DNA of 57,885 nucleotides from Gemmatimonadota bacterium (lineage in GTDB: Bacteria; Gemmatimonadota; Gemmatimonadetes; Palauibacterales; KS3-K002), in the NCBI GenBank assembly GCA_020344375.1, contig CP070823.1, positions 1,080,899 to 1,138,783 of the forward strand. Reading direction: 5' to 3'. Shown one piece after another: positions 21,619 through 24,379 of this stretch. Each line of letters starts with the position of its first letter. Within the stretch, counting starts at the first letter, position 1. The notes below the pieces were generated by a model. The model was not told where the DNA came from. It did no database searches and saw only the letters and a list, made by a program, of their open reading frames with translations. Position numbers and translations under genes: made by a program.

Positions 21619-22089
21619 GTGAACGTGGCTAAGCACCTAGAGGTCATACTGAGAAGAAAGGTCGAGGATCTTGGTGATGTGGGCGACGTTGTGAGCGTGA
21701 GGCCAGGCTACGCGCGCAACTATCTCTTGCCTCAGGGACTCGCCTACGCCGCGACCGAGCAGAACCGCCGGCGCCTTGAGCAGGAACGGGCGGCTGCCCT
21801 ATTGGCTGAGGAACGAGACCTGAGCAACGCTCGCGTGCTCGCCGAGCGACTAGAAGGCGCATCGATCACCTTCTCGATGTTGGCAGGCGAGGAAGGTAAG
21901 CTCTACGGTTCGGTGGGGCCGCGGGACATCGCGGCCCAGCTGAGCGAACAGGGCTTCGACGTGCATGGACGGCACGTCGTCATGAAGGAACCGATCAAGG
22001 CTCTCGGAGTCTATTCGGTGCCGATCCGGCTGTACCCAGAGGTGGAGGCCTCGATCAAGGTCTGGGTGGTCAAGCGAGAGGAGGAGTAG
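21619..22089 (+). CDS. rplI: Large ribosomal subunit protein bL9
   Basis: A 156-aa protein with the two bL9 lobes: an N-terminal 23S rRNA-binding domain (LEVILRRKVEDLGDVGDVVSVRPGYARNYLLPQGLAYAAT), a long connecting helix (RRLEQERAAALLAEERDLSNARVLAERLEG) and a C-terminal domain (EEGKLYGSVGPRDIAAQL, GVYSVPIRLYPEVEASIKVWVV). GTG 21619 gives a start four residues longer than the usual MKVILL. The final codons (GAGGAGGAG-type run) act as the ribosome binding site for the next gene, which begins at a CTG three bases after the stop. Confidence 0.96.
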   Translation: MNVAKHLEVILRRKVEDLGDVGDVVSVRPGYARNYLLPQGLAYAATEQNRRRLEQERAAALLAEERDLSNARVLAERLEGASITFSMLAGEEGKLYGSVGPRDIAAQLSEQGFDVHGRHVVMKEPIKALGVYSVPIRLYPEVEASIKVWVVKREEE

Positions 22090-22092
22090 GAC

Positions 22093-23898
22093 CTGGGAAT
22101 CGCGTACTGCGACGGGCATCGGCTCAAGCGGTTGTTTCTGGCGGGGACAGAGCACGTCTTCACCCACCGAGCCGAACTCGATCGCATCAACGTATTTCCG
22201 ATACCTGACGGCGACACCGGCACGAACCTGGCCCTAACGCTTCGGGCGATGGCTGACGCCTTGAAGGGTGTTAGGGACTGCTCCGTCGCAGACGTGGCGT
22301 CGCGGCTCGCGGAGGCCGGCGTCTTGGGGGCGCGGGGAAACTCGGGGATGATGCTGTCGCACTACTTCCTGGGTTTCGCCGAAGGACTCGACGGCCGGAA
22401 GCGAGCCGGGCCGGAGGATCTCGCGTTCGCCATGGGCCGGGCTTCTGAGTCCATCTATCAGTCGGTCGATCGCCCCGTCGAGGGCACTATACTCACCGTC
22501 ATCCGCGAATCCACCGAGGAGATTGATCACTTCGTGCGTCAGGTGCCTGACCTCGCGGCACTCGCCTGGCGGCTGCTCCGGGCGGCGCGCGCTTCGCTGG
22601 AGCGCACGCCGAAGCTGTTGCCTGCTCTGCGCGAGGCGAATGTCGTCGATGCGGGGGCCAAGGGGTTCGTGCGTTTCCTGGAGGGAGTGGTCGGCCTGGT
22701 CGAGGGTCGTGCCAGAGCCACGGCACCGTCGGCAACCGTGCTGGAGACACCCGACGCTGCCGCCCTCGCCAAATTCCCGGATGACCCAGATCGCGCGTTC
22801 CAGTACTGCTCCGAATTCGTTGTCCGGGGAAACCCGCTGCCGGGACGGGAGGCGATGGTCCAGGCCGTTCGGGAACTGGGGGGCTCGTTGGTCGTCACGC
22901 GTGCATCCTCCGTGGCCAAGATCCACCTCCACACGGACGAGCCGGATAGGGTCAAGCAGGCGTTGACTGCGTTGGGCAGTGACGTGGAGTGCGTGAAGGC
23001 CGAGGACATGCGGGCTCAGCACCGCCGTCGACGCCAGAAGACGGCACGCCGTGTCGCCGTGGTAACGGACAGCACATGCGATCTGCCCCCGGAGTTAGTA
23101 CTCGAGCACGATATCACGGTCGTGCCGCTCACGGTCATGTTCGGCGACGATGCCTTTCTGGATCACGTGGAGATCACACACGAGGAGTTCTTGCGACGGC
23201 TGGTCGATCCTACGCAGCCCCTGCCAACGACCTCTCAGCCTTCCCCGGCGCACTTTGAGGAGTCGTTCCGACGTGCCGCTGAACAGGCCGATAACGTGCT
23301 GGCCATATTGCTGTCGGGGGCCCTCTCCGGGACCCTCGGCCAGGCGCAAGCGGCTGCAGCACGCTTCACGGGCGCGAGTGTGCGTGTGTTTGACTCACGC
23401 TCGTCGTCTCTCGGGCTCGGACTGCAGGTGATCCGGGCAGCGGAACTGGCTCGGGAGGGCTGGGAGTTGGAGAAGATCGTCGGCGAGCTAGAGCGGACGC
23501 GCGAACGTTCTGGCTTGTACCTCACAGTTGATGACCTGCAGTACCTGCAGCGCTCGGGGCGGTTGGGAAAAGCGCGGGCCTTCGTCGGCAGCCTTCTCGA
23601 TCTTAAACCGATACTCAGCGTGGATTCGGAAGGTGCGGTTGTTCCAGTGGACCGGGTTCGGGGCCGTGAGGTGCTTGTCCAGCGTGTGCTGGAGCTGTTG
23701 AGACGGCAAGTGCCCAGGGAGCGAGCGCGGCTGCGGATGGGAGTGGTGCACGTTGATTGCCTTGACGTCGCTGATCTGCTTGCGAGTCTGCTACAGACGG
23801 AGTTCATGCCGGACGGGCTTCTGGTCCGTCCGGCCGCTGCGACGCTGTCCGCCCATACCGGGCCGGGTGCCTGGGCGGTGTTCTATCAGGCGGAGTAG
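22093..23898 (+). CDS. Fused fatty-acid kinase (FakA-like DhaL) and fatty-acid carrier (FakB-like DegV), CTG start
   Basis: A 601-aa chain with two normally separate proteins. Residues 1-200 are a DhaL/DAK2 kinase domain (DGHRLKRLFLAGTEHV, metal-binding NVFPIPDGDTGTN, GARGNSGMMLSHYFLGFAEGL, DAGAKGFVRFLEG). Residues about 225-310 are a FakA middle domain (YCSEFVVRG, GGSLVVTRASSVAKIHLHTDEP). From about 320 a DegV domain follows (VAVVTDSTCDLPPEL, TTSQPSPAHFEE, LLSGALSGTLGQA, LQRSGRLGKA, LDLKPIL). FakA phosphorylates FakB-bound fatty acid to acyl-phosphate for PlsX/PlsY. The first canonical start, TTG 22132, would remove conserved N-terminal residues. CTG 22093 gives a typical beginning and has GAGGAG six bases upstream, overlapping the end of rplI. 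Confidence 0.88.
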   Translation: MGIAYCDGHRLKRLFLAGTEHVFTHRAELDRINVFPIPDGDTGTNLALTLRAMADALKGVRDCSVADVASRLAEAGVLGARGNSGMMLSHYFLGFAEGLDGRKRAGPEDLAFAMGRASESIYQSVDRPVEGTILTVIRESTEEIDHFVRQVPDLAALAWRLLRAARASLERTPKLLPALREANVVDAGAKGFVRFLEGVVGLVEGRARATAPSATVLETPDAAALAKFPDDPDRAFQYCSEFVVRGNPLPGREAMVQAVRELGGSLVVTRASSVAKIHLHTDEPDRVKQALTALGSDVECVKAEDMRAQHRRRRQKTARRVAVVTDSTCDLPPELVLEHDITVVPLTVMFGDDAFLDHVEITHEEFLRRLVDPTQPLPTTSQPSPAHFEESFRRAAEQADNVLAILLSGALSGTLGQAQAAAARFTGASVRVFDSRSSSLGLGLQVIRAAELAREGWELEKIVGELERTRERSGLYLTVDDLQYLQRSGRLGKARAFVGSLLDLKPILSVDSEGAVVPVDRVRGREVLVQRVLELLRRQVPRERARLRMGVVHVDCLDVADLLASLLQTEFMPDGLLVRPAAATLSAHTGPGAWAVFYQAE

Positions 23899-23947: not shown

Positions 23948-24379
23948 ATGGTTCGAGCGAGGTCGGAGCGATCTCACACATCCAGGCGGGAACCCGCGGT
24001 AGTTACTTCGGGGCCAGTCAGGTTCAGCGACCTTCCTTCGCAGGTCCGGCGAGCTGTCGAACTCTGCCAGGACCGCAAGGCCCGACAGCTTATGGTCCTC
24101 GACTTGCGCGGCCTGTCGGACGCGACCGATTTCTTTCTCATCGGCTCCGGTGACTCGGAGGTACACGTGCGTGCTATATTCGAGCACACGGTGGAAGGGC
24201 TTGCTGGCACCGGCATACGACCAGCTGGGATCGAGGGCGAGCGAGCCGGGCGCTGGGTGCTCGTAGACTACATAGATCTTGTCGTGCACGTGTTCCACCC
24301 AACCGTGCGCGAGTTCTACCAACTGGAGCGGCTGTGGGGTGACGCGCCGACGTTGCTGGTGGAGGAACCGGATACGTGA
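23948..24379 (+). CDS. rsfS: Ribosomal silencing factor RsfS
   Basis: RsfS binds uL14 and blocks subunit joining under nutrient limitation. The 143-aa product contains the family core: AVELCQDRKARQLMVLDLRGLSDATDFFLIGSGDSEVHVRAIFEHTVEGL, then GERAGRWVLVDYIDLVVHVFHPTVREFYQLERLWGDAP. The N-terminal 25 or so residues (RARSERSHTSRREP) are extra and basic. ATG 23948 has no strong ribosome binding site; a later start cannot be excluded. Its stop overlaps the GTG of the following envelope gene (GTGA). Confidence 0.93.
   Translation: MVRARSERSHTSRREPAVVTSGPVRFSDLPSQVRRAVELCQDRKARQLMVLDLRGLSDATDFFLIGSGDSEVHVRAIFEHTVEGLAGTGIRPAGIEGERAGRWVLVDYIDLVVHVFHPTVREFYQLERLWGDAPTLLVEEPDT

Follow-up and report, generated by a model that had tools for sequence, protein, structure and literature searches.

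The locus described here raises the question of whether a fatty-acid kinase and its fatty-acid carrier, the partners FakA and FakB, can be a single protein. It lies in a stretch of 57,885 nucleotides (the window) from a Gemmatimonadota bacterium (assembly GCA_020344375.1, contig CP070823.1, positions 1,080,899 to 1,138,783 of the forward strand), where one gene joins a DhaL/DAK2 kinase domain, the middle domain of FakA and a DegV domain. The features of the locus, numbered from the first nucleotide of the window, are the following.

21619..22089, + strand: rplI (ribosomal protein L9), immediately upstream; conserved neighbour
22079..22084, + strand: AGGAGG, within the 3' end of rplI and from its sequence a likely ribosome-binding site for a start at CTG 22093
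22093..23898, + strand: DAK2-middle-DegV fusion gene (predicted one-chain fatty-acid kinase), with a start at CTG 22093 or TTG 22132
22198..22689, + strand: DhaL/DAK2 kinase domain, residues 36-199; N33, D39, D41, T42, N83 and D186 invariant in 44/44 fusions
22798..23028, + strand: FakA middle (dimerisation/Zn) domain, residues 236-312; C239, H278 and H280 invariant (PMC9136124, PMC11617999)
23029..23052, + strand: short linker, residues 313-320, from the middle-domain helix to DegV in the predicted model
23053..23892, + strand: DegV (FakB-like) fatty-acid carrier domain, residues 321-600; T380, S381, S412, R490 (= FakB1 R173) and H588
23948..24379, + strand: rsfS (ribosome silencing factor), immediately downstream; conserved neighbour

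The fusion gene and its start codon

The reading frame of the fusion is uninterrupted between a stop codon at 22087-22089 and the stop codon that ends at 23898. Position 22093 is a CTG, and the earliest in-frame ATG, GTG or TTG is the TTG at 22132. Because similarity to relatives (GIAYxDG) begins at 22093, eight bases past the AGGAGG, the CTG is a plausible, non-canonical start codon. The region 22079-22132 thus holds a conserved N-terminus with no preceding ATG, GTG or TTG, and the spacing from the AGGAGG to CTG 22093 is ideal. A standard start is likewise missing at this N-terminus in the two nearest relatives (L002 and L003), and many other relatives have an ATG one to three codons upstream of it. 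Compared with the two nearest relatives, the fusion gives a dN of ~0.25 and a dS of ~1.6-1.8 (dN/dS ~0.14-0.16), and purifying selection of similar strength acts on the kinase half and the DegV half.

Domain architecture and predicted structure

Three Pfam domains are found in the fusion protein above their curated cut-offs: Dak2 at residues 36-199 (E 4e-35), FakA-like_M (PF21645) at residues 236-312 (E 1e-13) and DegV (PF02645) at residues 321-600 (E 3e-80). All three are present in 44/44 fusions scanned. FakA-like_C (PF13684) has no Pfam match in the fusion protein of the window, and the FakA_C model gives weak matches in 8/44 fusions. In FakA, this third domain, FakA_C, is a tunnel-less FakB relative that docks FakB (PMC9136124). 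The DegV carrier domain of the fusion replaces the C-terminal docking domain of FakA, rather than following a complete FakA. Among the NCBIfam models, the fusion exceeds the cut-off as a DegV domain and matches the YloV, FakA and FakB1 models strongly yet below their cut-offs (FakA and YloV, 166.9 versus 975 and 276.3 versus 396.1 bits). Such scores are expected, since the fusion comprises parts of each. Matches to the DhaL equivalog model (18.5 versus a cut-off of 138.3 bits) and to the glycerone kinase model (16 versus 575) also stay below the cut-offs.

Residue conservation was followed in an alignment of 44 fusions from about nine phyla. The catalytic residues of S. aureus FakA are N32, D38, D40, T41, N82 and D185 in FakA_N and C240, H282 and H284 in the middle domain (PMC9136124); in the fusion they correspond to N33, D39, D41, T42, N83, D186, C239, H278 and H280, with N33 just ahead of the Pfam Dak2 match. 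Together with S412 and R490, these make up 11 residues linked to the catalysis of Fak or to the pocket of the carrier, and all are identical in 44/44 fusions. R490 aligns in sequence with R173 of FakB1, a residue that catalysis requires and fatty-acid exchange does not (PMC9136124). Among the other DegV residues, T380 and S381 are shared by 41/44 fusions and H588 by 40/44. FakB1 R205 is the centre of the wedge that binds the membrane and FakA_C (PMC9136124); the position equivalent to it, R523, is an arginine in 24/44. Five additional fusions, from Listeria, Acetoanaerobium and Enterococcus raffinosus, retain all of the kinase, middle-domain, S412 and R490 residues. At the C-terminus (23893-23895), many Gemmatimonadota fusions show a glutamate directly after the last DegV strand (YQxE or similar). 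A C-terminal glutamate is found in 55/60 canonical FakA sequences (...IE), and separate FakBs are mostly without it.

The AlphaFold model of the fusion chain has a mean pLDDT of 89 and a pTM of 0.58, so that the individual domains of the model are reliable and their mutual arrangement is not. By Foldseek, the DhaL half matches S. aureus FakA_N (7RM7) with a TM score of 0.96 and an rmsd of 1.0 (~31% identity over 200 residues). The DegV half matches the fatty-acid-binding DegV 2DT8 (TM 0.92) and palmitate-loaded FakB1 (TM 0.89), and the full chain matches S. suis FakA (7W7H) with a poor global fit (rmsd 24). In the predicted model, the first DegV strand starts ~4 residues past the last middle-domain helix. 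Across the fusion family, the D305-D326 spacer measures 14-34 residues (median 20), which is so short that the DegV carrier cannot be a free shuttle. The stretch between the DhaL and middle domains is 29-52 residues long in the fusions and has low confidence in the predicted model.

The sequence-only reading of this locus had described a FakA-like kinase and a FakB-like DegV joined in one polypeptide, a description that the domain search upholds, with neither half failing and the middle domain found as well, all in one ORF. The same reading would have given way had the catalytic Asp or carrier residues been lost, and the Mg/ATP residues, the Cys-His-His site and the FakB arginine are instead invariant. 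The structure prediction that it proposed for the intramolecular complex succeeded for the domains and left their arrangement uncertain.

Occurrence in the genome and the phylum

The genome that carries the window is a single contig of 3.04 Mb, estimated to be 88% complete. In it, the fusion is the sole Dak2 gene and the sole DegV gene, and both plsX and plsY are present. A split fakA/fakB pair elsewhere in this genome was considered and rejected, as no other DegV, Dak2 or FakA_C was found. Kinase, catalytic middle domain and carrier are thus all encoded in a genome that also encodes PlsX and PlsY, as a one-chain Fak system would require.

Within the phylum Gemmatimonadota, 117/298 genomes match the fusion: 104 have it as a full-length single ORF, seven have incomplete pieces apparently truncated by contig ends, and six hold remnants. 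Loci from named Gemmatimonadetes group in one clade with those of this phylum, in keeping with its assignment to Gemmatimonadota. A chance fusion or an assembly artefact is rejected by the 104 full-length orthologues and by the same architecture in many other phyla. Outside the fusion ORF, FakA_C is found nowhere in the phylum; its one weak match is within a fusion. Among 296 genomes, DegV is always fused save for one separate copy (L033 993-1856). The genome bearing this lone DegV gene (G178) also carries the fusion. The fusion is therefore the only Fak-like system in Gemmatimonadota and no oddity of a single genome.

In four families (f1, f2, f3 and f8), the gene sits within a conserved run, rpsF ... 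rplI - fusion - rsfS. In a fifth family (f9), a gene for glycerophosphodiester phosphodiesterase lies upstream of the fusion (L031 6457-7275, L032 6157-7059), which suggests a role in phospholipid recycling. About 60% of the sampled genomes of the phylum are without the fusion gene, which is hence dispensable there. Five loci (L042, L043, L044, L045 and L047) have broken or missing copies with unchanged flanking genes, four of them with remnants between rplI and rsfS. Given these retained flanks and remnants, the fusion has been lost by decay more than once in the phylum.

Fusions in other phyla

A genome scan with ORF checking found single-ORF fusions in Gemmatimonadetes, Eisenbacteria, Neomarinimicrobiota, Aminicenantes and WOR-3, as well as in Gammaproteobacteria, Bacteroidia, Spirochaetes and Firmicutes (Acidaminobacter, Enterococcus). 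Most remaining Firmicutes matches are three-domain FakA, often with an adjoining fakB. A search of a plasmid collection added further fusions in Listeria monocytogenes, L. innocua, Enterococcus raffinosus and Acetoanaerobium. In one Bacteroidales assembly, the fusion gene lies in two overlapping frames (L067 1281-3043), so that either a frameshift has occurred or the assembly is wrong here.

Among the evidence from gene context, the strongest for acyl-phosphate synthesis is the proximity of plsY to the fusion gene in three other phyla. In a Neomarinimicrobiota locus (L054), plsY and the fusion gene share an overlap of 4 nt; in a Spirochaetes locus (L060), it precedes the gene; and in a Bacteroidia locus (L058), it lies three genes downstream. 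In Listeria, the fusion stands in an operon-like run, DUF2177 - fusion - DUF1295, and is annotated merely as 'DegV family protein' (WP_077346032.1). This cluster recurs in Listeria, Enterococcus and other phyla (L141 4579-7531, L143 3552-6504), and a DUF1295 gene also follows the fusion in L058, L059, L061, L065 and L067. DUF1295 resembles the steroid reductase and phospholipid methyltransferase families. The cluster hints at a fatty-acid modification linked to the acyl-phosphate.

In 11/14 fusion-bearing genomes checked, there is no separate FakA_C gene. Acidaminobacter and Enterococcus carry the fusion together with canonical FakA and four separate DegV proteins, so that in these organisms it is an extra, dedicated enzyme; one Bacteroidales assembly has the fusion and a FakA_C gene. 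The supposition that such a fusion would serve one dedicated carrier fits the genome of the window, which holds no second DegV or Dak2. Likewise, the plsX and plsY genes to be looked for were both there, and the fusions that might exist elsewhere turned up across phyla.

Evolutionary history of the fusion

When a tree is built from the kinase and middle domains, one branch divides 32 fused from 62 canonical sequences (SH-aLRT 97). Recent, repeated independent fusions are rejected, because the kinase halves fall on one side of this single branch, including those of Enterococcus and Acidaminobacter. The tree of the DegV halves is not cleanly one clade (three changes), and a single clade is not rejected (p-AU 0.19). 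From these sequence trees, a single origin of the fusion is likely. When the tree is rooted with DhaL, the fusions if anything form a clade (90/95), on an outgroup branch far too long to order the one-chain and three-domain forms in time, and the DAK2 halves group with FakA, well apart from the separate DhaL clade.

Proposed mechanism and alternatives

With activity, dimerisation and membrane loading inferred from the Fak literature, the fusion is quite likely a self-contained, dimeric fatty-acid kinase with a tethered carrier. The N-terminal DhaL-type domain would bind two Mg ions along with ATP; the Cys-His-His site would lie in the middle domain, which would also dimerise the chain. FakA forms its dimer by way of this domain (PMC9136124, PMC11617999), and the fusion is hence probably dimeric. 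The C-terminal DegV would be a true fatty-acid carrier in the position of FakA's tunnel-less FakB-docking domain. While tethered, it would load fatty acid from the membrane and offer the carboxylate to a DhaL domain. S. aureus FakA minus FakA_C is still active, with a KM for FakB1 that is approximately tenfold worse (0.99 versus 0.09 uM; PMC9136124), and a tethered carrier can thus plausibly replace the dock. The receiving DhaL domain is probably that of the partner subunit (phosphorylation across the dimer), the least supported step of the scheme; the short linker makes such a transfer attractive. PlsY would then use the acyl-phosphate product in phospholipid synthesis, or the product would pass to PlsX.

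Several lines count for a fatty-acid kinase: the domains, the invariant residues, the absence of FakA_C or another carrier, plsX and plsY in the genome, and the adjacency of plsY elsewhere. Against it, the lipid-gene neighbours are all in other phyla, and those in the window are ribosomal. In addition, the domain arrangement of the predicted model is uncertain at this pTM (0.58), with a linker that seems short for a DegV reaching both the membrane and the ATP site. Dispensability in the phylum and the estimated 88% completeness of the genome also count against.

The same enzyme could act in cis, each DegV serving the DhaL domain of its own chain in a dimer that is purely structural. Such an arrangement would agree with AlphaFold-Multimer models of S. 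aureus FakA/FakB, the majority of which (some with single FakA-FakB contacts) put the fatty-acid headgroup near ATP (PMC11617999), and with the low-confidence stretch that separates DhaL from the middle domain in the fusions. However, a trans arrangement was predicted by AlphaFold for S. aureus (PMC11617999) and was proposed from the S. suis structure, going by the description in PMC11617999, and the linker to DegV is short. Action in cis is possible and, on balance, somewhat unlikely.

A more elaborate proposal gives DegV a dual role in a self-docking dimer, as the loaded carrier on one chain and, through the terminal glutamate, as a FakA_C-like holder on the other. Three-domain FakA with a separate FakB would then derive from the one-chain enzyme by a duplication after which the attached copy lost its tunnel. 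The glutamate that follows the last strand in Gemmatimonadota fusions and the weak FakA_C matches (8/44) lend this slight support. Comparison of FakA_C profiles with fused and with separate DegV yielded weak matches, and the DhaL-rooted tree, with its long outgroup branch, does not favour a one-chain-first order. We consider this proposal doubtful.

The tethered-carrier kinase must also be weighed against two readings that deny the DegV half a carrier's part in it. In the first, DegV merely docks or senses and the kinase half uses separate FakB carriers, like canonical FakA. DegV and FakA_C do have a fold in common (PMC9136124, and the weak profile matches) and occupy the same chain position, and in Enterococcus and Acidaminobacter the fusion occurs alongside four separate DegV proteins. 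Yet the genome of the window offers no other DegV and the phylum a lone one among 296 genomes, and a pure dock would have no reason to keep the pocket and catalytic residues of a carrier, S412 and R490, invariant, all of which makes this reading very unlikely. In the second, the kinase acts on a different substrate, such as dihydroxyacetone or another small molecule, and DegV is a regulatory lipid sensor. Dihydroxyacetone kinases also contain DAK2 domains, and the neighbourhood in the window is ribosomal, not lipid-related. Nevertheless, the DhaL and glycerone kinase scores are far under their cut-offs (18.5 versus 138 and 16 versus 575), the FakA-specific middle domain with its Cys-His-His site is present, plsY adjoins the fusion gene in other phyla, and the DAK2 halves group with FakA and not with DhaL; another substrate is highly improbable. 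The invariance of the carrier residues, the absence of any further carrier and the proximity of plsY elsewhere speak against both readings. That the gene has lost its function and is decaying, as the remnants in six genomes of the phylum (some in the rplI-rsfS slot) and the want of an ATG or GTG at the expected start might suggest, is extremely unlikely given the intact frame, the dN/dS of ~0.14-0.16 and the retention of all catalytic residues.

Novelty and significance

No published description of, or experiment on, a one-chain fusion was found in the open-access full-text literature. Each part is familiar by itself. The open literature that was searched seems to contain no description of the one-chain arrangement in which DegV takes the place of FakA_C, of its dominance in the phylum or of its spread. 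Two models of the Fak complex conflict, and in one of them FakB gives the fatty acid directly to the kinase domain of FakA, with FakA_C merely supporting (PMC11617999). Having no FakA_C and a tunnel domain in its position, the fusion is a natural test of whether presentation by carrier to kinase suffices. It is also a fixed-stoichiometry construct for solving the structure of the active complex. A 2023 review called FakAB a Gram-positive strategy (PMC10146087); the fusion points to activation of the Fak type in Gemmatimonadota, Pseudomonadota, Bacteroidota, Spirochaetota and others.

Comparison with known systems

FakA (YloV/VfrB), the kinase subunit of Firmicutes (S. aureus 7RM7, S. suis 7W7H), has the DhaL domain, the Zn/Cys-His-His middle domain and all nine catalytic residues in common with the fusion. 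It differs in having FakA_C (PF13684) where the fusion has a tunnel-type DegV, and the fusion scores under the cut-offs of the FakA and YloV families. The FakB/DegV carriers (Thermus 2DT8, S. aureus FakB1 5UTO) share the full DegV fold (TM <=0.92) and the R173 equivalent. Unlike FakB, which is a separate soluble shuttle between membrane and kinase, the DegV of the fusion is covalently joined to the kinase in the same ORF. Dihydroxyacetone kinase DhaL is a remote homologue of the DhaL domain; the fusion chain is without the DhaK partner domain, and a very long tree branch lies between the groups. Finally, the DAK2-DegV fusions of other phyla, such as Listeria WP_077346032.1, stand in a different operon and are ~29-30% identical to the fusion of the window, with which they share the same three domains and the kinase, middle-domain and R490-equivalent residues.
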